NCBI RefSeq assembly: GCF_022602565.1
Contig: NZ_JALBCV010000016.1
Coordinates: 1-64,000, forward strand
From: Rosenbergiella metrosideri
Lineage (GTDB): Bacteria > Pseudomonadota > Gammaproteobacteria > Enterobacterales > Enterobacteriaceae
Direction of reading: 5' to 3'
DNA: 64,000 bases
Made by a program: the position numbers and the translations under genes. Below, piece by piece: positions 3,561-64,000 of this stretch. Below the pieces are notes generated by a model. The model did not search any database. It was not told where the DNA came from and saw only the letters and a program-made list of their open reading frames with translations. How positions within the stretch are numbered: position 1 is the stretch's first letter; every line of letters starts with the position of its first letter.

Positions 3561-5124
3561 AGCACAACGCTGGCAACCGCGCTGTAATCCTTGGCTGGTT
3601 GCCCTTACGGTGACGTTAGCGGTATTTATGGAGGTACTCGACTCCACTATCGTTAACGTTGCCCTCCCCCATATCGCTGGTTCACTCTCTTCCAGTTATG
3701 ATGAGGCGACTTGGGTGCTCACCTCGTATCTGGTCGCCAATGGCATTGTTCTGCCCATCTCCGCCTTTTTTAGCCGCCTCTTTGGCCGTAAGAATTACTT
3801 CTTAATCTGTGTCGTGATGTTCACCCTTTGCTCTTTTCTCTGTGGTATCGCAACCGAGCTGTGGCAACTGATACTGTTTCGTATTTTACAAGGCTTCTTC
3901 GGCGGAGGATTACAGCCCGTCCAGCAATCTGTACTACTCGATTATTTTAGTAAGCAAGACCGTGGCAAGGCTTTCGGACTTTCTTCGATCGCCATTATTG
4001 TCGCGCCAGTGATTGGCCCGACCTTAGGCGGCTGGATTACCGATAACTTCAGTTGGCGTTGGATTTTCTTTATCAATATTCCGGTCGGCATCTTAGCGGC
4101 TTTCGCCATTTATCAACTACTCGAAGATCCGCCTTGGGAACGTAAAGCGAAGAAAGACCAACTGCGTATCGATTATATCGGTATCAGTCTTATCACACTG
4201 GGATTAGGCTGCTTGCAGGTCTTCCTAGACCGCGGTGAAGATGCAGATTGGTTCAACTCCTCCTTTATCATTACTTTTGCCGTACTTGCGGCAATTGGAC
4301 TTGTTGGAACCGTCTATTGGCTAATGTACGCCCGCCGACCGGTGGTGGATATATTGGTGATGCGCGATCGTAATTTTTGGGTCGCGGGACTGTTAATGGC
4401 CGCCATGGCCTTTATCCTCTATGGTAGCTCTGTCGTCATCCCACAATTGGCTCAACAAGACTTAGGTTATACCGCCACCCTAGCAGGTTTAGTGTTAACG
4501 CCCGGTGCCTTCTTTATTATCTTGACCATTCCTCTGGTATTGAAATTAATGCCAATCGTACAGACCCGCTTTATTATCATGTTCGGCTTTACCTGCTTAA
4601 TGGGGTCCTTCCTATACTCAGGTTTTCAAATGACCCCTACCCTCGACTTCACATCGTTGGTCATTATGCGCAGCGTACAGTCGATTGGACTAGGCTTCTT
4701 ATTTGTTCCCTTGACCACGATCGCCTTCATTACTATCCCTCAGCAGTTGAATGCCGATGCCTCAGCGCTCTTTACCATGTTCCGGAATGTGGCGGGTTCA
4801 ATCGGTATTTCTCTGTCTACTGCGGCGATTACCGAACGGCAACAGGTACGTTCGGCGTATCTCTCCGATCATACCACCGTATTTGATGAACCTTTCTCGC
4901 AAATGGTTCAAAAGATGGGTGCGGCGATAGAGAATTTCACTACCTTAGTCGGAAACAGTACCCAATTGGCTACGGCACAACTCTATAAACAGATGATTAG
5001 CCAAGCCCGGATTTTGGCGTATGTCGATGTCTTTACCGGGCTATGTATCATTGCCCTGATCATGATCCCCTTCTGTCTTTTACTCGCCCCTGTAAAGAGT
5101 GAAGGCAGCGCAGGAGGCCATTAA
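3553..5124 (+). CDS. EmrB-type MFS (DHA2, 14-helix) drug exporter
   Basis: About 523 residues. The N-terminus carries the DHA2 signature MEVLDSTIVNVALPHIAGSL, followed by the antiporter motif region RILQGFFGGGLQPVQQSVLL and VIGPTLGGWITDNFSWRWIF. It uses the proton gradient to drive export through the adaptor and outer-membrane channel encoded on either side. GAGG at 3540-3543 is well spaced for the ATG at 3553 and too close for the in-frame ATG at 3547. It overlaps the adaptor gene by 8 bases and abuts the next gene. The substrate cannot be told from sequence. Confidence 0.9.
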   Translation: MSEAQRWQPRCNPWLVALTVTLAVFMEVLDSTIVNVALPHIAGSLSSSYDEATWVLTSYLVANGIVLPISAFFSRLFGRKNYFLICVVMFTLCSFLCGIATELWQLILFRILQGFFGGGLQPVQQSVLLDYFSKQDRGKAFGLSSIAIIVAPVIGPTLGGWITDNFSWRWIFFINIPVGILAAFAIYQLLEDPPWERKAKKDQLRIDYIGISLITLGLGCLQVFLDRGEDADWFNSSFIITFAVLAAIGLVGTVYWLMYARRPVVDILVMRDRNFWVAGLLMAAMAFILYGSSVVIPQLAQQDLGYTATLAGLVLTPGAFFIILTIPLVLKLMPIVQTRFIIMFGFTCLMGSFLYSGFQMTPTLDFTSLVIMRSVQSIGLGFLFVPLTTIAFITIPQQLNADASALFTMFRNVAGSIGISLSTAAITERQQVRSAYLSDHTTVFDEPFSQMVQKMGAAIENFTTLVGNSTQLATAQLYKQMISQARILAYVDVFTGLCIIALIMIPFCLLLAPVKSEGSAGGH

Positions 5125-6657
5125 ATGAAAGGAAAACTCATGAAATCACAGCGATTATTATTGCCGATGCTGATTGCAGTCCTCAGCGGCTGTGCGGTCG
5201 GGCCCGATTATCATGCTCCTGAAAACCACTTAACTGGCGCATGGCAGGCGAGTCAACAAGATCAAGCTTCCCACCCGTTAATGACCGATACCCAGGTCAG
5301 TTGGTGGGAAAACTTTAAGGATCCGCTGCTCAATAGCCTTATCCAACGGGCGACAAAGGGCAATTTGACGTTACAGCAAAGCGTACTGCGTATTGCTGGC
5401 GCTCGTGAGCAGGTGACCAGTGCACAGGGGGGGTTATTACCCACCCTGAATGGTCAGGCTTCTTATTCTCGCCAACAGTTGGGATTAAAAGGAGAGCTAC
5501 AATCACAGGGGATCTACGATGCGATTCCCAGCGATATCGCCAACCAAGCAACGGGTAGCGTGAACTTTTACCAAGGTGGATTTGATGCCAGTTGGGAACT
5601 TGATTTGTGGGGGAAAACCCGCCGACAGATTGAGATGGCACGTGCCAGCGAACAGCAACAGATTGCACAGCATAATGATGCACTCGTCTCTCTTGAAGCA
5701 GAGGTCACTCGGACCTATCTTCAACTGCGTGCGGCTCAGGCTACCGAAGCCTCATTGGATCAACAGATCGCTATCGCGCAACAGAGCCTCGAATTGACGC
5801 AAAGTCAGATGCAAAACGGTCTTGCACCGCGTAGTGATGTGGAGAGTGCAACGGCGCAATTGGCCGCTTTACAGGCGCAACTACCGCAATATCAATCACA
5901 AATTGCCCAAGCGAAAAATGCGCTGGCGGTATTGATTGGCCAGCCGCCGGGTGCCTTGGATAGCGAATTAGCGTCGGTTAAACCGTTGCCGACATTACCG
6001 CAATTGGTTGCCGTCGGCGTTCCTTCCCAGCTTACGCGCCGTCGGCCAGATATCCGGTCGGCAGAAGCCAATCTTCATGCACAAACGGCTAATATTGGTG
6101 TCTCGGTAGCGCAATTATTCCCTAGCCTCTCCCTTACAGGACAACTGGGTGTGCGTAACACTGATATCAGCTATATGGATAATTGGAGCAGCCATTTTTA
6201 TAGCATCGGGCCGGGGATAAATCTGCCGATATTTGAGGGCGGTCGCCTCGTCTCCAACGTGAAATTGGCGCGTGCGCAACAAGCCGCCGCCGCACTCAAT
6301 TATCGACAAACCGTGTTAACAGCCCTACAAGAAGTGGAGAATGCTTTAGTCAGTTACCGTACAGGGCAACAACAAGACTCAGCCTTAACGCAGTCGCGTG
6401 ATGCATTACAACGCGCCTATCAACTCGCTTCAGAAAACTACAGGAAAGGCTTCATCACCTATATCACCGTGCTCGATGCACAGCGTCAGTTAGCGCAAAC
6501 CGAACAGCGTGCGATCCAGGCGCAAGCACAAACGGCCGTCGATTTAGTTGCGCTGTATAAAGCGCTAGGGGGTGGCTGGGAACAGCAGTCTGCAGTGACA
6601 CTACCGCATTATTCGGTTTTTGGTGACGTGGAGAAGACAGGCGTTACCTCCCTCTAA
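5125..6657 (+). CDS. NodT-family outer-membrane efflux lipoprotein
   Basis: 510 residues. A lipoprotein signal ends with the lipobox LSGC, so Cys23 should be acylated; the mature start CAVGPDYHAPE is typical of OprM/NodT-type factors. Two outer-membrane-efflux repeats follow, with the usual long helices and the GGWEQ-type end. It completes the tripartite pump with the two upstream genes. GGAGG at 5113-5117 serves the ATG at 5125, which directly follows the emrB-like stop; an in-frame ATG at 5140 is also possible and would keep the signal peptide. Confidence 0.9.
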   Translation: MKGKLMKSQRLLLPMLIAVLSGCAVGPDYHAPENHLTGAWQASQQDQASHPLMTDTQVSWWENFKDPLLNSLIQRATKGNLTLQQSVLRIAGAREQVTSAQGGLLPTLNGQASYSRQQLGLKGELQSQGIYDAIPSDIANQATGSVNFYQGGFDASWELDLWGKTRRQIEMARASEQQQIAQHNDALVSLEAEVTRTYLQLRAAQATEASLDQQIAIAQQSLELTQSQMQNGLAPRSDVESATAQLAALQAQLPQYQSQIAQAKNALAVLIGQPPGALDSELASVKPLPTLPQLVAVGVPSQLTRRRPDIRSAEANLHAQTANIGVSVAQLFPSLSLTGQLGVRNTDISYMDNWSSHFYSIGPGINLPIFEGGRLVSNVKLARAQQAAAALNYRQTVLTALQEVENALVSYRTGQQQDSALTQSRDALQRAYQLASENYRKGFITYITVLDAQRQLAQTEQRAIQAQAQTAVDLVALYKALGGGWEQQSAVTLPHYSVFGDVEKTGVTSL

Positions 6658-6661
6658 TACT

Positions 6662-6683
6662 TTCGCCCCGTAACCGGGGCGAA
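6662..6683 (+). terminator. Terminator of the efflux operon
   Basis: TTCGCCCCG-TAAC-CGGGGCGAA, a 9-bp GC-rich stem, then TTGTTTAAA. It lies between convergent genes, five bases after the efflux operon stop and just before the end of ypeB. Confidence 0.7.
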
Positions 6684-6687
6684 TTGT

Positions 6688-6902
6688 TTAAACTTTAAGC
6701 GGTATCACTAGGTGTTCAAGCCCTTCGATTCTTATCGCTAAAGCCAACTGCAGTAACTGTCCAAGATGCCCTTCTGGGAAAGCTTCTTTTCGAGCAAACC
6801 ATAATAAATACTCTTCGGGGAGATCAATCAGCCGCCTGCCTTGATATTTACCAAAAGGCATACGCCAGTTCGCCAGCTCAACTAATTGCTCTTTTTCTGG
6901 CA

Positions 6903-6903
<1 letters not shown>
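6688..6903 (-). CDS. ypeB: YpeB, DUF3820 small protein
   Basis: 71 residues, matching the short DUF3820 family (WRMPFGKYQGRRLIDLPEEY is the conserved core). The function is not established; family members are annotated as quorum-sensing-regulated virulence-factor-like, which is weak evidence. The start codon overlaps the ligA stop by one base (TAATG), so it is translationally coupled to ligA, as in E. coli. Confidence 0.88.
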
Positions 6904-9972
<3,069 letters not shown>

Positions 9973-12611: not shown

Positions 12612-12746
12612 TTGGCCTGCAATACGATAAGCCCATTGATTATTGGTCAGGCGTAGCTTTACACTCAATGGCTCCATTGAGCCGCTACACTTGGGCGCTT
12701 ACTTCCAGTATTTACACTTAAGCATCGTTGATTTAAAGGTAAGATT

Positions 12747-14474
12747 ATGATTTCTGGTATCCCTGCGTCACCCGGTATTGCATTCGGTAAAGCACTCCTT
12801 CTAAAAGAAGATGACGTTGTCATCAATAGCCACAAAATCGATCCGAGCCAAGTTGAGCAAGAAATTAATCGTTTTCTTGAAAGCCGCCAGAAAGCTTCTG
12901 CACAATTACAGATGATCAAAACAAAAGCTGGCGAAACTTTTGGTACCGAGAAAGAGGCTATCTTCGAAGGGCATATTATGCTGCTGGAAGATGAAGAGCT
13001 TGAACAAGAAATCATAGATCTTATCCGTAAAAATCACCAAACCGCTGATGCCGCGGTTCATGCCGTTATCGAAGACCAAGCTTCTGCGTTAGAAGAATTA
13101 GACGACGAATACCTCAAAGAACGCGCGGCAGACGTGCGGGATATCGGTAAGCGTCTGCTGCAAAACATTCTTGGCCTAACCATCATTGACCTCAGCGCAA
13201 TTGCTGAAGAGTCGATATTAGTTGCGAAGGACCTGACGCCATCGGAAACCGCACAACTAAACCTTGAGAAAGTTTTAGGCTTTATCACTGATTTAGGCGG
13301 CAGAACTTCACATACCTCAATTATGGCTCGCTCCCTGGAGCTGCCAGCCATCGTGGGGATTGGCAATATCACTCAATCGGTGAAAAACGGTGATTTTCTT
13401 ATTCTCGATGCCGTCAATAACCAAGTCCTTATCAATCCTTCAGAAGATGAAATCGCGGAACTGCGCGAAATTCAAACCACTTGGTTAGATGAAAAACACG
13501 AGATGGCTAAGCTGAAAGATCTTCCGGCGATAACGCTAGATGGTCATCACGTTGAAGTTTGCGCCAATATCGGAACGGTGCGTGATGTCGCCGGTGCTGA
13601 GCGTAATGGTGCTGAAGGTGTCGGACTTTATCGTACGGAATTCTTGTTTATGGACCGTGAGTCACTGCCTTCTGAACAAGAACAGTTTGAGGCTTATAAA
13701 GCCGTTGCCGAAGCCGTCGGGGCGCAAGCCGTCATTATCCGTACTATGGACATCGGTGGTGATAAAGACCTGCCCTATATGAACCTGCCAAAAGAAGATA
13801 ACCCCTTCCTCGGTTGGCGCGCAATTCGTATAGGTATGGATCGTAAAGAGATCCTTCACGCACAGCTTCGCGCTATCCTACGAGCCTCTGCATACGGAAA
13901 GCTGCGTATTATGTTCCCGATGATTATTTCCGTGGAAGAAGTGCGTATCTTAAAAGCTGAACTTGATACGCTAAAAGCGCAATTAACTGCAGAAGGTAAG
14001 GCGTTTGATCAGGCAATTGAAGTCGGTATTATGGTTGAAACCCCTGCTTCAGCAGCGATTGCCCATCACTTAGCAAAAGAAGTCGATTTCTTCAGCATCG
14101 GGACTAACGATCTGACACAATATACTTTAGCCGTTGACCGAGGAAATGACCGAATTTCCCATTTGTATAATCCGATGAGCCCTTCTGTACTGCTTTTGAT
14201 CAAGCAAGTTATTGACGCATCTCACGCTGTTGGAAAATGGACGGGGATGTGTGGCGAGTTAGCTGGCGATGAACGTGCTACACTATTACTATTAGGCATG
14301 GGACTAGATGAATTTAGTATGAGTTCTATTTCTATCCCTAGAATTAAAAAAATTATTCGTAACACTAATTACGAAGACGTTAAAGCTTTAGCCGCACAAG
14401 CCCTTTCGCAACCGACTGCTGAAGATTTGACGGATATCGTTGATAAGTTTATTAAAGAAAAAACACTTTGCTAA
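12747..14474 (+). CDS. ptsI: PTS enzyme I
   Basis: 575 residues. It autophosphorylates from phosphoenolpyruvate at His189 ([12 protein letters not shown]) and passes the phosphate to HPr. PEP-binding signatures are visible: [46 protein letters not shown] and the Cys in [18 protein letters not shown] precedes the ATG. The 135-bp gap after ptsH contains an imperfect hairpin region but no convincing terminator, consistent with co-transcription. Confidence 0.98.
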
Positions 14475-14515
14475 CTTGTCACAAGTGTTTCGACGTTATT
14501 GCTTAGGAGAAGATC

Positions 14516-15019
14516 ATGGGATTGTTTTCTAAACTTTTTGGCGACAAATCGGATAGCGATTCAAGCAACATTGAAATTGTTGCGCCGCTTTCGGGCGAGA
14601 TTGTCAATATCGAAGATGTACCAGATGTTGTTTTCGCTGAAAAAATCGTTGGTGATGGTATCGCTATCCGTCCTAACGGCAACCAAATTGTGGCCCCAGT
14701 CGAGGGAACAATTGGTAAAATTTTCGAAACTAACCACGCCTTCTCTATTGAGTCGGATAACGGCATCGAACTGTTCGTACACTTTGGTATCGATACTGTT
14801 GAGTTAAAAGGTGAGGGCTTTAAGCGCCTCGCAGAGGAAGGACAGAAAGTCAAGAAAGGTGATCCTATCATCGAGTTCGATTTAGCCTTCCTTGAAGAGA
14901 AAGCGAAATCTACCCTGACCCCTGTCGTTATCTCTAATATGGATGAAATCAAGTCGCTATCCAAACTGTCAGGACACGTGACAGTCGGCGAAACTCCGAT
15001 TATGCGGATCCAGAAATAG
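14516..15019 (+). CDS. crr: Glucose-specific EIIA component (EIIA-Glc)
   Basis: 167 residues, two shorter than E. coli EIIA-Glc because of a shorter lead. Active-site histidines are His74 ([10 protein letters not shown]) and His89 ([13 protein letters not shown]). It phosphorylates the glucose EIIB and, by its phosphorylation state, controls adenylate cyclase and inducer exclusion. It lies 41 bp after ptsI with AGGAGAAG before the ATG and ends the operon. Confidence 0.97.
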
Positions 15020-15023
15020 TGAT

Positions 15024-15055
15024 AAAAAAGCTCATCCTTGGATGAGCTTTTTTTT
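15024..15055. terminator. Bidirectional terminator between crr and the sensor kinase gene
   Basis: AAAAAAGCTCATCC / GGATGAGCTTTTTT, a 14-bp perfect stem with a 2-nt apex between convergent genes. T- and A-runs on both sides allow use from both strands. The kinase stop codon (15054-15056) overlaps its edge. Confidence 0.9.
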
Positions 15056-16388
15056 ACTCTGGCCACCGTGGCAGGCGTATTGAGATTTTAAGCCCACCTT
15101 CTTGGCGGTTAGACGCCGAGACTTGACCATGATGTGCCGTAATCACCTTGCGCACGATAGCTAAGCCCAATCCATAACCTTTGCCAGAAAGCGATGATTG
15201 TAAGCGAACATAGGGATCAAAAATACTTGATATTTTATCCTCTTCCACGCCGGGCCCACTATCACAAATCGTGAGGAGCAGTGTATCGCGATCGACCTCC
15301 AATTTGACCACTATCACCTGTCCCTGCGTTGAATAGCGTAAGGCATTGCGTAACACGTTCTCGATAGCACGACGAATAAGCTCAGCATTACCTCGGACCG
15401 TTACTGACTTAAGACTATCGTAATGAGCCACCACATCGACCTGCGGTTTTTGCGCCTCGTAACGCACATCAACCAAGATCGCCTCTAGAAGCGCAATAAA
15501 ATCGAAATACTGGTCAATATCAATGCCGTCGTGCTCAGCGCGCGATAAGGTCAGTAGCTCGCCAATCATTTTATCAAGCCGCTCAGTCTCAAGATCGATA
15601 CGATCCAGCGATTGAGGGATATTCAACTCACTCTGCCGTGCTAAACCTACTGCAAGCTGTACTCGCGCCAAAGGCGTACGCAGCTCATGAGAAATATCAT
15701 GAAGTAGCGCTTCCCGGGCTTTAACCAGCACATCGATACGTTCAACCATCGCATCAAAGTCCTTTGCCACTATTGATAACTCGTCATAACGACGCTTCAT
15801 AGCGGGGAAAAGCCGTACAGTTAGATCGCCGCGTGAGACTTTGGCAAATCCTTCCCGCAGCTGTCTTATCGGTCGAGTCATATTCCAGGCTAAGAGTAAA
15901 CTGAAGAAGATGCCAAGAAAAGGCGCGAAAAACATGATCGGCGTAGGGATATGCAAGGAATCGTGCCACGAGCGGTGGTTCCGTTCGTTAAAGCCCTCTA
16001 ACCTGGTGTAATCTAACGTGACTTGATAGAGATGCCCTGCATTGTCGTGAAGCTGCTGGCTGATCTGGCTGGGTACCCCTCGAGCCTCTTCATCGATATT
16101 GTTCGGGGTAACCCAGTTGTCAGTCAGGGTCATCTGCGGCCTGACCTCCGGGTCCCAACTCTCGACTAAACCTTGCACGGCTGCGGGGCCTGACGAGTGT
16201 GCCAGTAACTGAGTGATAGACGCCAGTTGAACTTGTTGCAAACTACGCTGTTGTCTAGCAAACGGCGAGCCATCATCATGGGCGACAAGCGGAAATCCTA
16301 ACCAGATGACTTGGCTTATTAATAGAAATACAAATAGAAAAGCCACCAGCATCTTGGTGAATAAGCGCCTTGGATAACGTTGATTCAT
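15054..16388 (-). CDS. CpxA-like sensor histidine kinase
   Basis: 444 residues: first membrane helix at 13-32, periplasmic sensor of about 115 residues, second helix at about 150-170, HAMP region 170-225, dimerisation/phosphoacceptor motif HDISHELRTPLARV with His234, then N box (ENVLRNALRYS), G1 (CDSGPGVEE) and G2 (GKGYGLGLAIV). Closest in motif style to CpxA. The start overlaps the regulator stop by 4 bases. The signal is not known; the periplasmic part does not look like CpxA, so the symbol is left empty. Confidence 0.88.
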   Translation of the reverse strand: MNQRYPRRLFTKMLVAFLFVFLLISQVIWLGFPLVAHDDGSPFARQQRSLQQVQLASITQLLAHSSGPAAVQGLVESWDPEVRPQMTLTDNWVTPNNIDEEARGVPSQISQQLHDNAGHLYQVTLDYTRLEGFNERNHRSWHDSLHIPTPIMFFAPFLGIFFSLLLAWNMTRPIRQLREGFAKVSRGDLTVRLFPAMKRRYDELSIVAKDFDAMVERIDVLVKAREALLHDISHELRTPLARVQLAVGLARQSELNIPQSLDRIDLETERLDKMIGELLTLSRAEHDGIDIDQYFDFIALLEAILVDVRYEAQKPQVDVVAHYDSLKSVTVRGNAELIRRAIENVLRNALRYSTQGQVIVVKLEVDRDTLLLTICDSGPGVEEDKISSIFDPYVRLQSSLSGKGYGLGLAIVRKVITAHHGQVSASNRQEGGLKISIRLPRWPE

Positions 16389-17065
16389 CGAATTTTGTAA
16401 CCAATACTGCGCACGGTTTCGATAAAGATTTGGTCCTGAGTGGTTTTTGCAATTTTCTGGCGAATATTACTGATATGCACGTCGACGCTTCGGTCATAGG
16501 CTTCACGTGTACGCCCTAATGCTTTTTCCGAAAGTTCGTCTTTCGACACTACACGATCCCCTGCCACTAAGAGCAGTTCAAGTAAGTTAAACTCTGACGC
16601 CGTGAGATCAATCGGTTGCTGTTGCCATGTCACAGAACGCATCGCTGGATTAAGCTCAAGTTCTTTTAAGACTAGCGGTTGGTTATCGCTAGGCGCGGCC
16701 GGGATCTCTTCAAAACGACGCATAACCGAACGTAAGCGGGCAACCAATTCTCGTGGATAACACGGCTTAGGCATATAATCATCTGCCCCCATCTCTAAGC
16801 CAATCACTCGGTCGATATTTTCGCCCTTAGCGGTAAGCATAATGATAGGTAATCGATGGTGCTGGCGTACCTGACGTAACACTTCAATCCCACTGATATC
16901 AGGTAGCATGATATCCAAGATCATCGCATCATAATGCGCCTGATTAATTACTTCTAAGGCACGCTTACCGTGGGTAATGACATCAGTATTCATTCCTTCG
17001 CCCGCCAAGTACTGACTGAGCATCTGTCCTAACTCTTGATCGTCTTCAACTAATAAAATTTTCAT
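16385..17065 (-). CDS. CpxR-like OmpR-family response regulator
   Basis: 226 residues. Receiver domain with acidic pair Glu7/Asp8-Asp9, phosphoacceptor Asp51 (AMILDIMLPD), Thr in IIMLTAKGE and Lys in YMPKPC; then a winged-helix DNA-binding domain (DLTASEFNLLELL, DVHISNIRQKI). Its order and the 4-bp overlap with the kinase gene show a functional pair. It lies 79 bp downstream of cysM on the same strand, where E. coli has unrelated genes, so it is a lineage-specific insertion or retention. Confidence 0.9.
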   Translation of the reverse strand: MKILLVEDDQELGQMLSQYLAGEGMNTDVITHGKRALEVINQAHYDAMILDIMLPDISGIEVLRQVRQHHRLPIIMLTAKGENIDRVIGLEMGADDYMPKPCYPRELVARLRSVMRRFEEIPAAPSDNQPLVLKELELNPAMRSVTWQQQPIDLTASEFNLLELLLVAGDRVVSKDELSEKALGRTREAYDRSVDVHISNIRQKIAKTTQDQIFIETVRSIGYKIR

Positions 17066-54564: not shown

Positions 54565-56019
54565 ATGTCAACCACTAACACGATACTGACGGGATCACCA
54601 GAGAGCCTTCAGGCCTATCAAGAAGTGATGACCCAAAGCCAGCAAGCGGTTGCCGCTTGGCTGCAACAGCCGGAAATGTATCAAGGTAAATCCGTCGCGG
54701 CACTACGCGAGCGCATCGCCTTACAGTTCACGGCTGAAGGGTTAGGAAATGAAGAAGCGATTAATCGTGCTGTCGAATATTTCTTAAAAGACAGTCTAGC
54801 GGTCCATCATCCACAGTGTGTGGCGCATTTACACTGCCCAAGTCTGGTGATTAGCCAAGCGGCGGAAGTGTTTATCAATGCCACAAACCAAAGTATGGAC
54901 TCTTGGGATCAAAGCCCGTCTGCCACGATTATGGAAGTAAAACTGGTCGAATGGCTACGCAGCCAAATCGGCTACCCGGCGGGGGACGCCGGGGTTTTCA
55001 CCAGTGGTGGAACCCAGAGCAACATGATGGGACTGATGTTGGCCCGCGATGCATTTTTCGCTCGCCGGGGTCACTCAATCCAACAAGACGGCTTACCGAA
55101 TAACCTGCGTAACTATAAAGTGTTCTGTTCTGAGCACGCGCACTTCTCTGTGCAGAAAAATATGGCGCTAATGGGCCATGGTTACCAGTCGGTGGTGCAG
55201 ATCAAAACCGATGACTGTTCGCGTATCGATCTGAATGATCTGTTGGAGAAGCTAGCAACCGCGAAAAGCCAAGGTGAAGAAGTGATGGCTATCGTGGCAA
55301 CCGCTGGGACAACCGATGCGGGCGCCATTGATAATCTTACCGCTATCACCACCTTAGCGGCGGAACAAGGTATTTGGGTACACGTCGATGCAGCATGGGG
55401 CGGCGCCTTACTGCTTTCGGAGAAATATCGTCACTGGTTAGCCGGTTTAGAGCAGGCTGACTCTGTCACGTTAGATTTCCATAAGCAATATTTCCAAACC
55501 ATTAGTTGTGGCGCGTTCTTACTGAAAGATCCGAAGCACTATGAGTTAATGCGCTATCAAGCAGCGTACCTTAACTCAGAGTTCGATGAAGCACAGGGGG
55601 TCCCTAACCTGGTGTCGAAATCATTGCAAACCACCCGTCGTTTCGATGCATTGAAACTATGGATGGGACTCGAAGCGCTAGGACAAAAACAGTATGCCGC
55701 AATCATTGATAATGGCGTCACATTAGCGCAAGACGTTGCCGCCTATGTTGAGAGCATGACCGAAGTAGAATTGGTGATGAAGCCTCAGCTGGCGAGTGTC
55801 CTGTTCCGTGTGCGTCGTGAAGGCTTAGACGATCAGCAGCTCGCGCTGTTCAATCAGAAGATTGGCGATGCACTGCTTGATTCTGGACGCGCAAATGTCG
55901 GTGTCACTGAACACCATGGCGTGACCTGTCTGAAACTGACGTTACTGAACCCTACCGTGACGTTAGATGATATCAAAACGCTGTTAGCGTTAGTCTTACA
56001 AACGGCAGAAACGCTGTAG
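54565..56019 (+). CDS. ddc: L-2,4-diaminobutyrate decarboxylase
   Basis: 484 residues, group II PLP decarboxylase. PLP lysine in VTLDFHKQYFQTISCGAF; WVHVDAAWGGALLLSEKYR and FTSGGTQSNMMGLMLARDAF are family blocks. It decarboxylates 2,4-diaminobutyrate to 1,3-diaminopropane. Co-transcribed with dat and closed by a strong terminator. It is the last clearly intact host gene before the decayed region. Confidence 0.94.
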   Translation: MSTTNTILTGSPESLQAYQEVMTQSQQAVAAWLQQPEMYQGKSVAALRERIALQFTAEGLGNEEAINRAVEYFLKDSLAVHHPQCVAHLHCPSLVISQAAEVFINATNQSMDSWDQSPSATIMEVKLVEWLRSQIGYPAGDAGVFTSGGTQSNMMGLMLARDAFFARRGHSIQQDGLPNNLRNYKVFCSEHAHFSVQKNMALMGHGYQSVVQIKTDDCSRIDLNDLLEKLATAKSQGEEVMAIVATAGTTDAGAIDNLTAITTLAAEQGIWVHVDAAWGGALLLSEKYRHWLAGLEQADSVTLDFHKQYFQTISCGAFLLKDPKHYELMRYQAAYLNSEFDEAQGVPNLVSKSLQTTRRFDALKLWMGLEALGQKQYAAIIDNGVTLAQDVAAYVESMTEVELVMKPQLASVLFRVRREGLDDQQLALFNQKIGDALLDSGRANVGVTEHHGVTCLKLTLLNPTVTLDDIKTLLALVLQTAETL

Positions 56020-56043
56020 TTGAAAAAAAAGTCCCTTGTTGAT

Positions 56044-56081
56044 AATGCCAGTCAGTTGCTTAACTGACTGGCATTTTTTTT
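56044..56081 (+). terminator. dat-ddc terminator
   Basis: AATGCCAGTCAGTT-GCTT-AACTGACTGGCATT (14-bp stem) followed by T6, 25 bases after the ddc stop. Confidence 0.95.
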
Positions 56082-56358
56082 GTGCACTTTGGATACGGAA
56101 AAGGCCACTATTCTTGGAAAGACGCTTTTCCTGCTTATCGGTGGTTTCACGTACTCTCCCGCTACCTTCCAATAATAGATGAAACCAGGATCGCCTAAAC
56201 TAAGCAGCGTGAGTACGATGTTGATTTCTTAATTATGCTGATTAGGTTCTCCCCGGCGTGATATTGAATTAGACAAGACCTGACACTGGGGATTTTGCTA
56301 ACTATGGAATGGGGAGCGTAAGAAGCTGTTATAGTAAATGAGTTTATTAGTAGGATAT
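56082..56358. other. Unassigned sequence at the host/island boundary
   Basis: 277 bp without an ORF or a recognisable repeat. The transition from host operon to decayed island must lie here or shortly after. No attachment-site duplicate or insertion-sequence end could be recognised by eye. Confidence 0.5.
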
Positions 56359-56712
56359 AAAATGCTTTGGTTGATAGTTAAGTATTCGGTAATAGCAGGA
56401 ATGGTCGTGTTGATTTCCAAAGTGGCAAAACGAAGTGATAGGCTAGGGGACTTACTGGCTGCTCTACCTTTTGTAATTGTTCTGGTTCTTGTATGGATGA
56501 AGATAGAGGGGCAGACTCAATAGAAGATCGCTATCCACGCGTGGTATACTTTTTAGTATGTAATTCCTACTTTGCCTATGTTTCTTTGCTTCCCTCTTCT
56601 GTACAGGCATTTAGGTTTCTGGCTTGCGCTTATGACGTCATGCATTACGACGATTTTAGTTTTCTGGGTGTATGCGCAACTCCTAAGATTCTTTGGTATA
56701 AATTTGATGTGA
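56359..56712 (+). pseudogene. DUF3147-type small membrane protein gene with two in-frame TAG codons
   Basis: The ATG at 56359 follows AGGAT. Reading one frame to TGA 56710-56712 gives 117 codons interrupted only by TAG at 56521-56523 and TAG at 56554-56556. The pieces are LWLIVKYSVIAGMVVLISKV, AKRSDRLGDLLAALPFVIVL, then (after both stops) YVIPTLPMFLCFPLLYRHLG and TTILVFWVYAQLLRFFGINL. This is a four-helix DUF3147-like inner-membrane protein. The second TAG probably replaces Trp (TGG). Host genes use TAG as a normal stop, so recoding is unlikely. Confidence 0.75.
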
Positions 56713-56902
56713 TCAGAATTAGAATACATTATACCTAATGCCCCGGTAGTTGTATGTGAACATTACGGGCGGTAGCAGTCTGAAGACTCACATTATTTTG
56801 CTAAAATCATCTCTATTTAACATAATCGACGTTACGCGCAAGCACGGTAGTTCCTAGCACGTTGCCAGTTTTTAGCCTAGAATTCTTTTAAGTACCGCAA
56901 AC

Positions 56903-58014
56903 TTGACTTGCTTAATGTTCATTCGTGCTAACTATGGATCCGGCTTGCCATTTAAACTGCTAAACTATCCTATAGTGTCAAGCGCGTTGCGCCGACCCAT
57001 TCTGGTGGATCACCGTCATGTACCACGGTACTGGGCCACGGTCAGGTCGATCATGTGTGGCGCACAATTGGCGCCGGCGACAATGACTAAGAAGCTTCGT
57101 TACATCTAATCCCTGTACGTTCACGCAGATCAGCTACGTGGGTACGGTACATTGGACATCGCGTTGGCCAACCTCGATGAGGTCATCCTGGCCGAAGTAT
57201 TGGAAGCCTAGCTCGTCTAGATTTGTAATCAGCCGAATCAGACCGAAGCTGACGAAGACCGCTGGCAATCGGGCTTGAGATTTGCCACCTCCATCGTGAC
57301 CTAGTTGTCGCGCAGCACATTCTCCAATGCTTGTCTCAAGCGGATTGAGGAACGACTGCACCCCCTGAGTTTTATCTACGATCAATTGTATGTTCGCCGA
57401 CGCCAGCCATCTCAAGCCATCCGTTCGTTGCCGGCCAATGTGGTGTCGGCGCTCTACGATCATCTCTATACAGCAGCAGCCAGCAATCCTTTCCCTCGTG
57501 AGAAGGTGCGCTGGCAGGTCTAACTGGCGTTCTTTCTGATGCTGCATCAGGGGCTGCGCCGAGCCGAGGTGCTGCGCTTACCGGTGGGTATAATCAAAAG
57601 CGCCTATGACACAACCGGCAGCAGCGCATGCGCTATTGGCTGAACGTGCAGGTGAACCCAATATGCCGCTGAAGAGGATAATCCTTGTTACTCTCGACCC
57701 AGCATTAAGACCGCCCAATCCATCCGCCAGATACCAGTCAGCGACCCCGTGGCAAAGTTGGTTCAGACCTATGTCAAGAACTACCGCGGGGGTCCAGGTC
57801 ATCCTTATCTGCTAAACTCGCAGAAAAACCAGCCACTCTCAACCAAATCGATCGCCAAGCTATTTGCTAAGTTATCCGCCAGTTTGTCTGACACCGCCCG
57901 ATCTCAACTACGCGACTGGACCAGTAAAGAGTCCGTCACTACCCACGATTTGCGGCATACTTTTACCGTGGTGGGCCTGAACCTAATCAGATTGAACATG
58001 CAAAGGTTCGTCTA
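56903..58014 (+). pseudogene. Tyrosine recombinase (integrase) pseudogene
   Basis: The frame containing HRHVPRYWATVRSIMCGAQL, RWQSGLRFATSIVT, FFLMLHQGLRRAEVLRLPV and SIRQIPVSDPVAKLVQTYVK is continuous except for stops at 57107 (TAA), 57209, 57218, 57302 (TAG) and 57521 (TAA). A stretch at about 57600-57690 is shifted (QQRMRYWLNVQVNP is in another frame). The catalytic block THDLRHTFTVVGLN is present, but the tail with the active-site tyrosine is missing after 58014. It belongs to the large site-specific recombinases of integrative elements, now inactive. Confidence 0.85.
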
Positions 58015-58015
58015 A

Positions 58016-58114
58016 ATGGCGTCAGGCGCTTGCTTGCCACAGAAGTGGGTGAAAAACCCTTCCCTGATGGACCTGATCTTTCAACTGGCAAGGATCAAGG
58101 GGCTTGATGACTGA
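58016..58114 (+). pseudogene. Possible C-terminal scrap of a second recombinase
   Basis: 33 codons ending in LMDLIFQLARIKGLDD just before the next gene start, whose ATG overlaps the end. Recombinase trios with a small helper protein often show such overlapping ends. This would mean the middle of the module was deleted at about 58014. Weak evidence. Confidence 0.25.
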
Positions 58115-58511
58115 ATCAATCGAAAATTGTCTTGATGAGGCTATCAAAGCTGTTCTGGGTGACATGCTGTCTAGGGACGAGGACATCACTGCCTGAGCCG
58201 CTGCAAGGCTGCATCCAACGCTTAAAGCAGCATCCTCGATCACGCGTAGTGACAGTCGGAGCGCCCTACTCGCTCAATATCAGCGATAGCAGAAGCAATA
58301 CCGCCTGTGGTCCACCAGGTCAGGAAAACGATCGACTGTGCACCTTGTCGGAGACCTCGCCGCCCGCAAGTCGAGAATCACCGAGTTGGAAAAACAGATC
58401 TCATTGCTGACTGCATCTCACATCGCTATTATTAAAGAGGCAGGCGAACTAGGTGTATTCAGAAAGTGGCTGGAGTTGTTCGAAAAATTAGATAAAAACA
58501 ATCCTACTTAA
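58107..58511 (+). pseudogene. Small coiled-coil (TnpC-like) recombinase helper gene, two in-frame stops
   Basis: ATG at 58107 follows AGGGG. The frame runs 134 codons to TAA 58509-58511, interrupted by TGA at 58194-58196 and TAG at 58287-58289. Blocks: TESIENCLDEAIKAVLGDML, then ITRSDSRSALLAQYQ, then a C-terminal coiled coil (RITELEKQISLLTASHIAII; FRKWLELFEKLDKNN). The layout is that of small helper proteins encoded after recombinase genes (TnpC/DUF6262-like). The family assignment is inference. Confidence 0.5.
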
Positions 58512-58516
58512 GTAGG
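58503..58516. repeat. Perfect 14-bp palindrome
   Basis: CCTACTTAAGTAGG spans the stop codon of the helper gene. It has no T-tract and could be a recombination or regulator site. Confidence 0.5.
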
Positions 58517-58587
58517 TAATTTGTTACCCAAGCAGGACTAAATTGGAACGCGCAAGTAGAGTTCCCTAGGGTTCAGGGACGAATATC

Positions 58588-58665
58588 ATGCCAAAAATAA
58601 TCGGCAACGCTAGCGCTTATCAAGATGAAGAGGATGAATGTCCTCCGGCGGGAGTAAGTTTATGA
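58588..58665 (+). CDS. 25-residue ORF overlapping the start of the NTPase gene
   Basis: ATG at 58588 opens MPKIIGNASAYQDEEDECPP and ends in TGA 58663-58665, overlapping the NTPase ATG (58662) as ATGA. It is acidic and too short for recognition. Upstream of it is CAGGGACG, a weak ribosome site. It may be a leader peptide for translational coupling, a small partner protein or the remaining tail of a lost gene. Confidence 0.4.
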   Translation: MPKIIGNASAYQDEEDECPPAGVSL

Positions 58666-61600
58666 GTATCGCAGGAATACGCTCCAATCGAGGTGATGTT
58701 TATCAGACATTGGTAGCATTTGATTGGGCATTGACAGTATTGTCCGACCAGGATTTTGAATGGCTTGAGATAGATTCGATTACCTATTCCATGGATGATG
58801 TAGTAATAGGAAAATATGACGGTACCCTGATTGCTTGTCAGTGCAAAAAAAATCAAACCGACTTCAAGGCCTGGACGATAGCCGACCTCGCAGATGAATT
58901 GGACAAAGCTTGCCATTTGCTGGCCAATAATCAGAATGTAAAAGTCCGATTTTATTCACGAAACAACTTTGGCAACCTTGCAAAACTGAGAGAGCACAGT
59001 TCGACTCAGTACGATGAAGCTAGCTACCAAGCAAGTTTAGGAAAAGAACAGCAAACTGTAGATGAGAATTTGTCGGCACGACTTGCTACATCCGCCCCCA
59101 ATCTTTCAGCCTTTGAATTCCTGTGTCGAACAAATTTTGTGACCAGCGATGACTTGGATCGCATGGAGAAACTGCTACGCGAACGCTTACGATACATGGT
59201 GAGCAATCCTGACTCTGCATTCACGGCACTTTGGGCAAGCCTCGACCAACTGGGAGCGCGCATGGCTAGCAATAGCGCATCTGTCCAGCATCGATTAACC
59301 AAACGCGACCTCAAGACCATTCTTCAGCAGGCTGGAGCAACAATGGTTCCGCCCATGAATCTTGATGAAATACGTCTTTCTTTTTCCAACACCTCCGCCA
59401 TCGGCAGGTCGTGGCGGCGAGACATTGCAGGACAACGTATATCCAGCCCGACCGTGGATGAGCTCCTTGCAGCCATTGATGCCCAAAAGAGATCAATCTT
59501 GCTCACGGGCCTTCCGGGCTCAGGAAAAACCTGTGTGATGCTGGCGTTGCAAGAGGCGTTGGAGAAACGGGCAGAAGTCAATCCTGACATAGTACCGCTC
59601 TTTATCCAGTCGCGTGAGTTCGCCGACCTGGCTGCATCAGAAGATCGTCAAGCCCAAGGCCTGTCTGAACAATGGGTGGAAAAAGCTGCTCGATTGGCGG
59701 AAGACGCCCATGTGATTACAGTTATCGACTCTTTGGATGTGCTATCCATCGCTCGTGATCATCGCGTTCTGCAGTATTTTCTTGCACAGATAGACCGGCT
59801 GCTATTGATTCCCAATATCACCGTTATTACTGCCTGCCGTGACTTCGACAAGCATTACGACCGACGAATTGCCGAACGGCAATGGGGTTACGAATTGAAA
59901 TGCCAGCCCTTGAACTGGGAGGCCGATATTGCACCGTTACTCTATTCGCAAGGAATTGCGACTACCAACATTGATGCTGTTACTCGTGAGCTGATAAGGA
60001 ATCCGCGCGAGTTGGCATTGTTTGTCGAGCTGGCCCAACGAGACGGCAGCTTCAACGTTGTGGCAAGCCAAGCATTGGCACAGCGCTATCTCGATACCAT
60101 CGTGCGAGCGAACGGTGCATTGGGTGATGTAGCTATACAAGCGATTGAAGCCGTTGCCGCAGAAATGCTGAAATTACGAAGCTTGACGGTGCCGCATCAG
60201 CGTTTCACTGCCTCTCAGGACATTCAGAGAAAATTGTGCAGCCTTAACGTGCTACAAGCAACTCAGGATGGGAAACTGACGTTCGGACATCAAACCTTGC
60301 TGGATGTGCTGGTCATAAGTGGAGCTGTGCGTAGTGGCGTCACGTTGAGTGAGTTCATACACGGCTTACCCCCCGTTCCTTTTGTACGCCCCAGCATTCG
60401 CAGTTTTGTCGCGCAGTTGGCGCTAGGTGAGCGACGCGAATTCAGAAAACAACTCAGGACGGTATTGACTGGTAACGCGGCCTTCCACATCAGACGTTTG
60501 GTAGCAGAATCATTTGCCGAACAGATGCCCCAGGACGAAGACTGGTCACTGATACGTGATCTGCGCGAAAAACACCGCGATGTTTTCCAGGTGATATATG
60601 CCTTGGCTGGTGCTATTGAGTGGCATCGCTTTTGGTTCAAACATTTGGTTCCCTCTTTGAAGGCTACGCAGGATGCTGAAGGATTTATTGGGCATGTTCA
60701 TCGCATTGCGCAATGGATTAATGAAGATTGCACAGACGTACTGTCATTCTGGATGGAAGCGCTCTCACTAGATTGGCTTGATAGCAATAGAGTTGCAGAC
60801 CGCTTAAGTATTCATCTGTCTCATATCAAGTCAGAAAATATGGCACTGGTTGTTCCATTGCTTAACCGGCTGCTTGCTATGCCGCGATCTGAATATAGCT
60901 TTCTTGGTCGTGTCATTGCTAGTTGTGTAACAGCAGGTGTGGTGGAAGACACCGTGCTCTGGCGTTATATAACAGATGGTATCAGCGACGAGGATTTACT
61001 TCAATTCAGCTTCGATAACAAGTTGCGTTGCCAGGCTCGTGAGTTCGGGGACCGGCATGACAATTTCATCGTTCAACGTATGGAGCAATCCAGTACTTTG
61101 CTGGATTTGGCCTTAGAGTCAATCGAACATTGGAGCAATGTGCGGACATCACACTACGGAGAAACCCGCATAGGCTACCGGCATGGTTTCTTGAGCGAAA
61201 CTTCATACGAAAATATGCATAGTCAGAGGGATATAAGTCACTCGAACAGTATGAACCTTCTGCTTGATGCAGTTGAAGCAGCAATTCTTCATCATGCAAA
61301 AACAAACTCAGACTGGTGGTTAAGCAATCGCGAACGTCTTTGTTTCAATAATGAAGGCGCATTGCTTTACTTCGCCATACTCGCTTGCACCGTATCGCCT
61401 GAAGTCAACATCGATCTGATAGGCAGCATGCTGTGCGACAAAAAGATGCTGGAATTTGAACTTTCCTACGAATTGGGTGCATTGATACAGTCGGGATTCA
61501 AGCTTCTCTCCGCCCCCGTACAAGATGCTGTGATGGCGAGCATTTTGACTGTGTGGAATGAAAAAACTAATGACGAGTCCAGACTTTGGGTATTGAGAGC

Positions 61601-63230
61601 GCAAGCAGAATTGATCGTACCGATTCCTTGCTATCTACGCTCACCTGAAGTGCAAGCAGTGGTGGATAAATATGAGAAAAAAGAAGGGGTGTTGATTCGT
61701 CGACCGAATATCCGTCCGCATGGCGGTATTATTAGAGCGCCATTCTCATTTGAGGTGTTTCTCGGTGCCAGTGATAGCGGGGTATTGAGATTGCTAGAAC
61801 ACTACAACGGTCACTCGGATTGGCACGGGGCTGACTTCCTGGTTGGCGGTGAGCGCGAGATTGGCATGCAATTGCGAGAGGCCTCCTCTCGCAATCCTTC
61901 CCGATTCTTGAGCTTATTATCTATTTATTGGCCAGGTATTCCAGAAAAGTTTCGTAATGACATCATGGACGGCGTCGCCACATATCTGGCTTATCGTTAT
62001 GGGAACTTACAAAGTAGCGGAGCGTGGCAGTCGATCGAAGAGCCTAATGTCTATCTTTTAGCAAACCAGATTCTTGATGAGCTAGAAAGACATCCAGCGG
62101 AGTGGCAACACCGACGCTGCACGGCCAAAGCACTTGAGGCCTGCGCCAATGTCATCGAGGATGTAGAAGAAGCAAAGCGGCTGATTTTTTTGGCTATAGA
62201 CTTTGTAGATCTTCATGAGGCTGATCCAATCAAGGGGGATTCCGTAGGCTTACTTGATTTAGGAATCAATATGGCGAAAGGAGACGTTGCCGATGCCTTG
62301 ATGATCTTGGCTAATAAATTTCAAAAGCACGGCAGCGAGTTTCCTGAATTGCTAGTACCCACGTTGCATCGTTTTGCCAGTGACGAACACCCTGCTATTC
62401 GTGCTATGATCTTGCGCCACCTGCCATATTTGCAAAGCAAATCACTCGACCTAGGATGGGAGTTGTTCTATCTCGCCATGCAAGATGCAGATGGGCTTTG
62501 GCAAATCGCCGAGCCATGCCTTTATTATGCGTACCACAATCACTTTGAAGTAGTGAAGCCTTTACTGGCGCGCCTGCGCAACGAGGGGAGCGGTAAAGAC
62601 CTAGAGACATGGGGGCGTATTTCTGCTTTGGCTACCATGACCAAGCACATCGACTTTGCTGAGTTTATAGAAGACTTGAATACTCTGGATAATGCTGACG
62701 CTTGGCGGGGCGCTGCTACTGTTTGGACAAATTCTGAAAATATCCGAAAGCATCGGGAGCTGTGCCTTGCCGGTATGAACTCGGGTTTGAATACAGGCAA
62801 CCTCCACGCCTTAGTAGTTGCCGAGCAGATGGCTCATATTTTCAACGATAAAGCTGATGCGATTTCTGTTCCAATAGAGCTGGTTAGACTCTGTTTGTCA
62901 GTATTTAAAAACGATAGAAGTGTCGAGAATAGAAATCATCGTCTCTTCGGATTCCATGAGTGGCTCAACGCAATAGTCCAACACGATCCACAGCAGGCCT
63001 TGGATGCAGCCGAAATCTATCTAGCCTATGCCAGTCATGAAGGACGACATTTATATGATCATACCGATAGTCTTACCCAGCTTATGACTCGGCTCTTTGC
63101 GGAAGCAGAGGAACGGGAAGAGTCTGACTGCGGCGCGATGCTACAACGCGTTGTGGTAGTGCAAGACACGCTACTTTCATTGGGAGTAAATGGTGTGCTC
63201 GATTGGCTGAAAGCCGCCGAGCGACCGTGA
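58662..63230 (+). CDS. Avs-like defence protein: Cap4/DUF4297-type nuclease + STAND NTPase + long sensor region
   Basis: 1522 residues, fully open. Residues 1-130 look like a Cap4/DUF4297 PD-(D/E)xK nuclease: RSNRGDVYQTLVAFDWAL start, Glu36, Asp45-Asp46 (SMDDVVIG) and QxK at Gln60-Cys61-Lys62 (IACQCKKN). An NTPase follows: Walker A GLPGSGKT at 283-290, Walker B VIDSLDVLS with Asp356/Asp359, then ITACRDFDKHYDRR; about 265-600. The remaining roughly 900 residues are helical and without membrane segments, suggesting a superhelical sensor. In Avs proteins this layout recognises a phage protein, oligomerises and cuts DNA. The ATG at 58662 follows GGGAG and overlaps the short ORF stop; ATG 58638 (after AGAGGATGA) is possible. 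The exact family is not recognised and ligand and activity are inference. Confidence 0.7.
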   Translation: MSIAGIRSNRGDVYQTLVAFDWALTVLSDQDFEWLEIDSITYSMDDVVIGKYDGTLIACQCKKNQTDFKAWTIADLADELDKACHLLANNQNVKVRFYSRNNFGNLAKLREHSSTQYDEASYQASLGKEQQTVDENLSARLATSAPNLSAFEFLCRTNFVTSDDLDRMEKLLRERLRYMVSNPDSAFTALWASLDQLGARMASNSASVQHRLTKRDLKTILQQAGATMVPPMNLDEIRLSFSNTSAIGRSWRRDIAGQRISSPTVDELLAAIDAQKRSILLTGLPGSGKTCVMLALQEALEKRAEVNPDIVPLFIQSREFADLAASEDRQAQGLSEQWVEKAARLAEDAHVITVIDSLDVLSIARDHRVLQYFLAQIDRLLLIPNITVITACRDFDKHYDRRIAERQWGYELKCQPLNWEADIAPLLYSQGIATTNIDAVTRELIRNPRELALFVELAQRDGSFNVVASQALAQRYLDTIVRANGALGDVAIQAIEAVAAEMLKLRSLTVPHQRFTASQDIQRKLCSLNVLQATQDGKLTFGHQTLLDVLVISGAVRSGVTLSEFIHGLPPVPFVRPSIRSFVAQLALGERREFRKQLRTVLTGNAAFHIRRLVAESFAEQMPQDEDWSLIRDLREKHRDVFQVIYALAGAIEWHRFWFKHLVPSLKATQDAEGFIGHVHRIAQWINEDCTDVLSFWMEALSLDWLDSNRVADRLSIHLSHIKSENMALVVPLLNRLLAMPRSEYSFLGRVIASCVTAGVVEDTVLWRYITDGISDEDLLQFSFDNKLRCQAREFGDRHDNFIVQRMEQSSTLLDLALESIEHWSNVRTSHYGETRIGYRHGFLSETSYENMHSQRDISHSNSMNLLLDAVEAAILHHAKTNSDWWLSNRERLCFNNEGALLYFAILACTVSPEVNIDLIGSMLCDKKMLEFELSYELGALIQSGFKLLSAPVQDAVMASILTVWNEKTNDESRLWVLRAQAELIVPIPCYLRSPEVQAVVDKYEKKEGVLIRRPNIRPHGGIIRAPFSFEVFLGASDSGVLRLLEHYNGHSDWHGADFLVGGEREIGMQLREASSRNPSRFLSLLSIYWPGIPEKFRNDIMDGVATYLAYRYGNLQSSGAWQSIEEPNVYLLANQILDELERHPAEWQHRRCTAKALEACANVIEDVEEAKRLIFLAIDFVDLHEADPIKGDSVGLLDLGINMAKGDVADALMILANKFQKHGSEFPELLVPTLHRFASDEHPAIRAMILRHLPYLQSKSLDLGWELFYLAMQDADGLWQIAEPCLYYAYHNHFEVVKPLLARLRNEGSGKDLETWGRISALATMTKHIDFAEFIEDLNTLDNADAWRGAATVWTNSENIRKHRELCLAGMNSGLNTGNLHALVVAEQMAHIFNDKADAISVPIELVRLCLSVFKNDRSVENRNHRLFGFHEWLNAIVQHDPQQALDAAEIYLAYASHEGRHLYDHTDSLTQLMTRLFAEAEEREESDCGAMLQRVVVVQDTLLSLGVNGVLDWLKAAERP

Positions 63231-63350
63231 TTAGGAATCAAATCAATATATAGTTTTAGTTGGCGGGCATAATATTCATCGATTGCGATTGAAAGATAAA
63301 AAATCTTGCGCAGGCTCCCACTCATCCACCAATGGCATACCAAACCAACG

Positions 63351-63917
63351 TTAAGCATCCAGGCAAGCCGAAAATTGGCACCCTAACAACGTATTTTCGA
63401 GGTATCCGCCCCTGGCCGCCATGCGTTCCATGATTTCACCCCAGGTATTCATGGCCTAATGGGCCATTTGCCCTTGGCGGGCGATCAGCTGGCGTTCGAT
63501 CTCGTCATACGCCATACCCATCACGATGCTAGCAAAACTCTGATCGGCATTGAGGGCCGTCAGGCGTTGTCGCACCACCTCGGACGCCGTCGCGGCAAAC
63601 CACTCGGTCGGGCAACGCCCCCCAGTCCAACCACGCCGGCGGTTCGATGCGTACGGCAGCCACGCGTTTCAGCATTTTTTCAGTTCGGTGGTCTGCGCCT
63701 TAGTCTGGCAGCGGATGATTGCCGTATCGTGCAGGTTGAAGTCCTCGAAATAGCGGATGCTGAAACCACTGACCCGTTGTAGCGGGTTTCCTGTCAAGCC
63801 CAACTTGAAGCCGAGCCCATCTGTGAGCGTCAGCATGTAGATGAAAGGCTACGATTGTTCCGTGCTGGTCTTGAGGGTATGGGCGAACACACGGTGATCG
63901 CTGTAGTTGCGGGGCAT
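63351..63917 (-). pseudogene. GIY-YIG-like protein gene, broken by stops and frameshifts
   Basis: GGAGGGG precedes the ATG at 63917. The main frame reads MPRNYSDHRVFAHTLKTSTE, then TAG (63849-63851), then FIYMLTLTDGLGFKLGLTGN and IRYFEDFNLHDTAIIRCQT. A second frame then supplies RIEPPAWLDWGALPD, with shifts near an A6 and a G6 run, and the first frame resumes with TEWFAATASEVVRQRL and IVMGMAYDEIERQLIARQ. TAG follows at 63456-63458 and a last stretch MNTWGEIMERMAARGGYLE runs to TAA 63351-63353. The FIYML ... FKLGLTGNP pattern resembles the start of GIY-YIG/T5orf172-type domains. Clearly non-functional. Confidence 0.65.
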
Positions 63918-64000
63918 GGCGGCCCCTCCTTGACTACCACCACTCGCAACGGAATGTGCTGCGGGCTCTACGAAGTCGGAGGGTCAATCTACTGTTGCGT

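Follow-up and report, generated by a model that had tools for sequence, protein, structure and literature searches.

The question raised by this locus is what is encoded by a single uninterrupted gene of 1522 codons, lying among gene fragments near the end of a 64,000-nucleotide stretch of Rosenbergiella metrosideri DNA (positions 1 to 64,000 of contig NZ_JALBCV010000016.1, hereafter "the window"), and whether its product may serve in defence against phages. A preliminary description, made from the letters alone, had proposed a candidate new antiviral STAND system resembling the Avs proteins. In the accessible part of PMC12931631, the STAND layout is given as an N-terminal effector, a central NTPase and a C-terminal sensor; among Avs proteins, the accessible part of PMC12724215 names the phage terminase as what Avs1-3 sense and the portal as what Avs4 senses.

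The gene and the insertion that carries it

The open frame on the forward strand extends over 58638-63230 (1530 codons counted from its first ATG), and translation from the ATG at 58662 gives 1522 codons with no stop within, a start shared with a homologue of solved structure in the PDB. Both the intact gene and the positions of its motifs (D45/D46, Q60-x-K62, G283-T290 and Walker B at 353-361) had been put forward in the preliminary description, and both are borne out: the frame is one and uninterrupted, and every motif falls at the residues named. The frame at 58662-63230 is not a chance one, since there are seven full-length relatives in genomes at 51-73% identity and the pairwise dN/dS is 0.09-0.16 overall (six of nine relatives with computable dS), values that, at the level of sequence comparison, indicate purifying selection across the relatives.

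The gene ending at 56019 (PLP decarboxylase-like, named by eye) is present in 5/5 genomes of the genus, that of the window included. Downstream of it, the four other genomes (L050-L053) hold 93, 1277, 156 and 503 unmatched bases and then resume at the counterpart of contig position 64963 or 65289-65290. Compared with these four, the window genome thus carries an insertion of 8.6-9.3 kb, and the STAND gene was not found in any of the four. Apart from this gene, no frame longer than 137 aa lies between the end of the 56019 gene and the end of the window. The integrase remnant retains a Pfam Phage_integrase fragment at 4.5e-05, below the Pfam cut-off. That every neighbour of the gene is broken, as had been stated, is true of the insertion as far as it lies within the window, where the integrase and the DUF3147 gene are fragments only; "every" is slightly too strong beyond it, because a complete-looking, lipoprotein-like frame of 160 aa lies inside the insertion at contig 64238-64720. 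The housekeeping gene ppx of the window's genome is 67% identical to that of E. coli, and Pectobacterium peruviense is the one named source among the genome relatives, which suggests an enterobacterial host. The coordinates are collected in Table 1.

Table 1. Features of the gene and of the insertion around it (window positions; residues refer to the 1522-aa protein).
Feature	Positions	Strand	Basis
Insertion, continuing to about contig position 65289	56036..64000	.	Absent from 4/4 other genomes of the genus
Remnant similar to DUF3147 gene of Klebsiella plasmids	56346..56618	+	blastn
Tyrosine integrase remnant, broken over several frames	57420..58012	+	blastn to annotated integrases; Pfam Phage_integrase fragment
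GGGAG, ribosome-binding-site-like, 7 nt upstream of ATG 58662	58650..58654	+	By eye
Gene of 1522-aa STAND protein (nuclease - ATPase - sensor)	58662..63230	+	Frame, translation, homologues
Cap4-like nuclease region, residues 1-240	58662..59381	+	PADLOC LmuA model
D45/D46 ... Q60-x-K62 catalytic-type motif	58794..58847	+	Conservation in 14 rows
STAND-type P-loop ATPase and helical part after it, residues 241-560	59382..60341	+	Pfam, hhalign, fold search
Walker A GLPGSGKT, residues 283-290	59508..59531	+	Translation, alignment
Walker B stretch TVIDSLDVL, residues 353-361	59718..59744	+	Translation, alignment
TACRDFD, residues 390-396, arginine conserved	59829..59849	+	Alignment
Sensor-like half, residues 561-1522	60342..63227	+	Without Pfam, PADLOC or NCBIfam match listed
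C-terminal tail, residues 1471-1522, strongly conserved within a half that otherwise varies	63072..63227	+	Entropy profile, 10 rows

Nuclease-like, ATPase and sensor-like parts

The N-terminal region is matched over residues 11-243 by the PADLOC LmuA model PDLC03848 (a Cap4-type nuclease) at E=9.7e-08, and a LmuA model matches five of ten family members at E≤0.01, two of the ten (L015, L016) having lost the nuclease. In Lamassu, LmuA forms an effector subunit of its own, whereas in the window protein the domain is joined to an ATPase and a sensor. The residues D45, D46, Q60, K62, K63 and N64 are identical in all 14 nuclease-bearing rows, including L030, a part of the G830 gene that is split over contigs. 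The match at family level is modest: the Pfam scan of the window protein gave no nuclease match, the structure model is poor in this part, and hhalign of the nuclease part against the Avs2 set stayed below 1%, its best stretch being the DG..QxK segment.

The central part holds a P-loop with Walker A and Walker B motifs in a NACHT/AP-ATPase-like core. Pfam AAA matches the window protein at 6.6e-07 and NACHT at 0.0033, below the Pfam cut-off, and each of the two is found in 10/10 members at E≤0.01. The conserved arginine of TACRDFD may have a sensor function. Local hhalign of the ATPase against an Avs2 set (L039, which passes the Avs2 cut-off, and its four relatives L040-L043) gave E=3.6e-05 and a probability of 71% over 177 columns, from Walker B through the conserved NPRELALF, and against one Avs4 relative, a single-sequence target, 1.3%. 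Other ATPases also match: the next hit after 9n00 in the profile search of the PDB is PCH-2 at 1e-05, and TRIP13 (PADLOC) and orc1/cdc6 (NCBIfam) each match three of the ten members.

A structure model of residues 1-640, built from five rows (pLDDT 53.7), is usable for the ATPase and not for the nuclease, so that the fold searches speak for the ATPase only; a single-sequence model of residues 1-1060 (mean pLDDT 38) was set aside. The first Foldseek match of the partial predicted model is Avs4 with phage portal (8dgf, E=2.5e-11, at a TM of only 0.26), and Avs5 filaments are also among the matches listed. With VIA-align, whose matches lie mostly over residues 246-473, NSF, p97-type and other AAA ATPases score at a similar Z to the Avs5 filaments (about 12 to 13.4); by fold alone, STAND and other AAA proteins are therefore not told apart, and NSF, p97 and Orc folds fit the ATPase model too. 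The absence of 9n00 from the 50 matches listed in each PDB fold search (library to April 2026) is uninformative.

For residues 561-1522, local hhalign gave no match above a probability of 1%, whether to the Avs2 set or to the Avs4 relative. Mean pairwise identity among ten rows is 51-56% at residues 641-1522 vs 71% in the ATPase, and 77% at residues 561-640; dN/dS is highest at residues 641-1100 (0.16-0.23, computable for five of nine relatives).

Relatives, effector exchange and neighbourhoods

The family is sparse, with matches in 7/295 and 4/394 genomes (E≤0.001) and in 4/398 (E≤1e-10); genomes are shared among the three draws, and the window's own genome is counted in every tally, as are partial or broken matches. 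Full-length relatives were found in Pectobacterium peruviense (L002, 73% identical), in the draws of 295 (L003, L004, L005, L006), 394 (L011, L012) and 398 genomes (L029), and on Nostocales plasmids (L015, L016; a third copy, L017, is split by an IS). These plasmid copies (L015-L017) were taken from seven matching plasmid records. Left out of the full-length count are plasmid hits H4 and H5, the broken copies of G260 (L007, L009, L010) and G615 (L013, L014), the two parts of the G830 gene that lie on separate contigs (L030 and L032), and matches to the ATPase only (L008, L031 and plasmid hits H6 and H7). Three viral contigs carry relatives, two full-length (L026, L027) and one cut by the contig end (L028); an alignment query found all three, a single-protein query none. 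No relative was found among phage records by tblastn, or among 5,426 complete genomes of E. coli, searched closely with the window gene and distantly with 3,900 bases of L003. L031:733-3963 encodes a more distant STAND protein, which matches the family over residues 4-623 (hhalign 99%), its C-terminal half being unmatched.

The layout of effector, ATPase and long sensor is kept with an exchangeable effector, a nuclease in 14 rows and a caspase-type domain in L015 and L016. These two proteins align with the window protein from residues 101 and 141, respectively, to 1519 at 30-31% identity, and carry the caspase-type domain in front, the nuclease part being lost after a short stub; Peptidase_C14 (Pfam) and NF047832 (NCBIfam, 2.7e-23) are accordingly found in two of the ten members. 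L017, also from Nostocales, retains the DD-QxKK motif. The caspase-bearing relative on the L015 plasmid is flanked by two more genes that PADLOC matches to caspase-type models (4144-7104 and 12680-16726).

Wide flanks were examined around seven intact copies (L002, L018, L019, L020, L021, L023, L024). A near neighbour with a PADLOC defence-type match is present in four of the seven, a proportion that is no test of enrichment, since neighbours were picked by eye; of the seven loci, the PADLOC scan covered L018, L019, L023 and L024, and in one batch of ten proteins five matched at E≤0.001. The four neighbours are a DSR2 (SIR2) gene adjoining the family member (L024:5459-9028, PADLOC 1.9e-139; NCBIfam Dsr2 458.9 bits, below its cut-off), an AbiTii (L019, 6e-37), an HNH type IV restriction-like protein (L023, 1.7e-32) and an RdrB-like protein (L018, 1.3e-25, part of the PADLOC model being covered). 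The viral-contig copies L026 and L027 sit among phage-like genes (by eye), and one neighbour tested in each gave no PADLOC match. Immediately upstream of the copies at L020:9648-14369 and L027:8001-12575, and in the same orientation, stands a umuC-like gene (by eye), an arrangement that could reflect an SOS link or a shared insertion spot. The copies in L018 and L022 adjoin a tyrosine integrase, with genes resembling folD/cysS close by (by eye); the L022 copy is decayed.

A probable antiviral STAND protein and the alternatives

The family profile finds one full-length sequence in the PDB, 9n00_A (three entries, six chains). This protein, deposited as "AAA family ATPase" with 1523 aa (9n00/9n01/9yix), matches the window protein over its full length at 2501 bits and shares its start, nuclease motif and Walker motifs, though its sequence differs. 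In the open-licence literature, no paper on these entries was found by entry code, and none tied to the family. Judging from these three entries, the family is already under study, and the proposal of a new system is not supported.

The curated models place it outside the Avs families for which they were controlled. Neither NF041813 (Avs2) nor NF041815 (Avs4) is listed for any of the ten members at E≤0.01, and the NCBIfam controls scored: the Avs2 protein L039 reached 1263 bits (cut-off 1000) and the Avs4 relative L034 reached 639 bits, under the cut-off of 1500. On these grounds the members form a STAND family that the curated models for Avs2 and Avs4 do not cover. PADLOC listed no AVAST model for the window protein; no model of Avs1, Avs3 or Avs5, types that the libraries presumably include, was listed at E≤1 (PADLOC, NCBIfam), the controls being those for Avs2 and Avs4. 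Avs2 is alike in its N-terminal QxK stretch and in a STAND ATPase detectable by hhalign, and differs in its model and in its sensor and nuclease parts, for which hhalign stays below 1%; Avs4, first match of the predicted fold, differs in its model and in its hhalign score against the single relative. The PADLOC candidate PDC-M54A matches six of ten members (best 5.1e-08), as well as the ATPase region of the distant L031, and is not listed for the window protein itself at E≤1. The Gifsy prophage protein GiPD474 was considered and rejected, since in the accessible part of PMC12724215 it is ParA/MinD-like and its Walker A lies at residues 29-34. Of the candidate Avs-like system, the nuclease-like N-terminus, the STAND-type ATPase, the sensor-like C-terminal half and a defence context in several relatives stand; "Avs-like" holds by analogy and not by any Avs model listed, and the statement that the C-terminal half matches no Avs1-4 type is supported for the Avs2 set and the Avs4 relative compared.

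The best reading is probably an antiviral STAND protein whose effector can be exchanged, and we consider it likely that the window gene is a single-gene system of this kind, sensing phages through its C-terminal half and cutting DNA with its Cap4-like nuclease effector. The architecture, the conservation of the motifs, purifying selection across the relatives, the mobile and defence surroundings of several relatives and the effector swap are observed, whereas phage sensing, oligomerisation, DNA cleavage and the identity of the trigger are inferred. Counted in its favour are the LmuA match with the DD-QxKK motif, the AAA/NACHT matches with the hhalign to Avs2, the Avs4 structure as first Foldseek match with Avs5 filaments also listed, the effector swap, the defence-type neighbours and the relatives on viral contigs; counted against it are the modest nuclease match, the low TM to 8dgf, the weak hhalign to Avs4 and the fit of cellular AAA proteins. 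By analogy, the nuclease would be kept idle at rest by the ATPase together with the long C-terminal half; binding of a phage-made protein by the C-terminal half would lead to ATP-dependent oligomerisation, bringing the N-terminal nuclease domains together, and the assembled domains may then cleave DNA, which would halt the phage and probably the cell too.

The odds given to the alternatives overlap with those of this explanation: its architecture would equally be that of a diverged Avs, an anti-plasmid STAND protein or a relic. A target among plasmids or competing prophages, instead of lytic phages, would suit the relatives on prophage-like contigs and beside integrases, and is rather unlikely given that neighbours in other genomes resemble anti-phage genes. 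The fragments around the gene in the window part of the insertion, together with the decayed copies in two other genomes, would suit a relic, intact yet silent or useless in its host; 1522 codons without a stop and with all motifs intact make this unlikely, and dN/dS, which reflects mainly how the relatives evolved, does not settle the matter for the window copy.

That the protein is a strongly diverged Avs1-Avs5 type, with terminase or portal as its trigger, seems quite improbable: the homology of the ATPase to the Avs2 set and an Avs4 as first solved fold are set against a sensor half that hhalign matches neither to the Avs2 set nor to the single Avs4 relative, and the lack of any Avs model listed (NCBIfam, PADLOC), although the controls score. 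Lastly, the Orc1/Cdc6, NSF, p97 and PCH-2/TRIP13 matches of the ATPase would agree with a cellular, Orc1-like or PCH2-like AAA protein handling DNA or proteins outside defence, a reading made very improbable by the sporadic occurrence in the overlapping draws (own genome included), the mobility and the swappable effector.

For the antiviral STAND protein, one sensor (about 30% identical to its end) serves a nuclease or a caspase-type protease depending on the group. On this basis we suggest, tentatively and with low confidence, that the ATPase-sensor part senses a feature common to phages of enterobacteria and filamentous cyanobacteria, that something other than terminase or portal would be its trigger, and that the conserved final 52 residues may contribute to the switch. 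With the structure of a close homologue in the PDB, a direct search for the trigger is possible. The finding adds to the antiviral STAND class a well-delimited family, unnamed by the NCBIfam and PADLOC models used, and offers a natural swap from nuclease to protease on one sensor.
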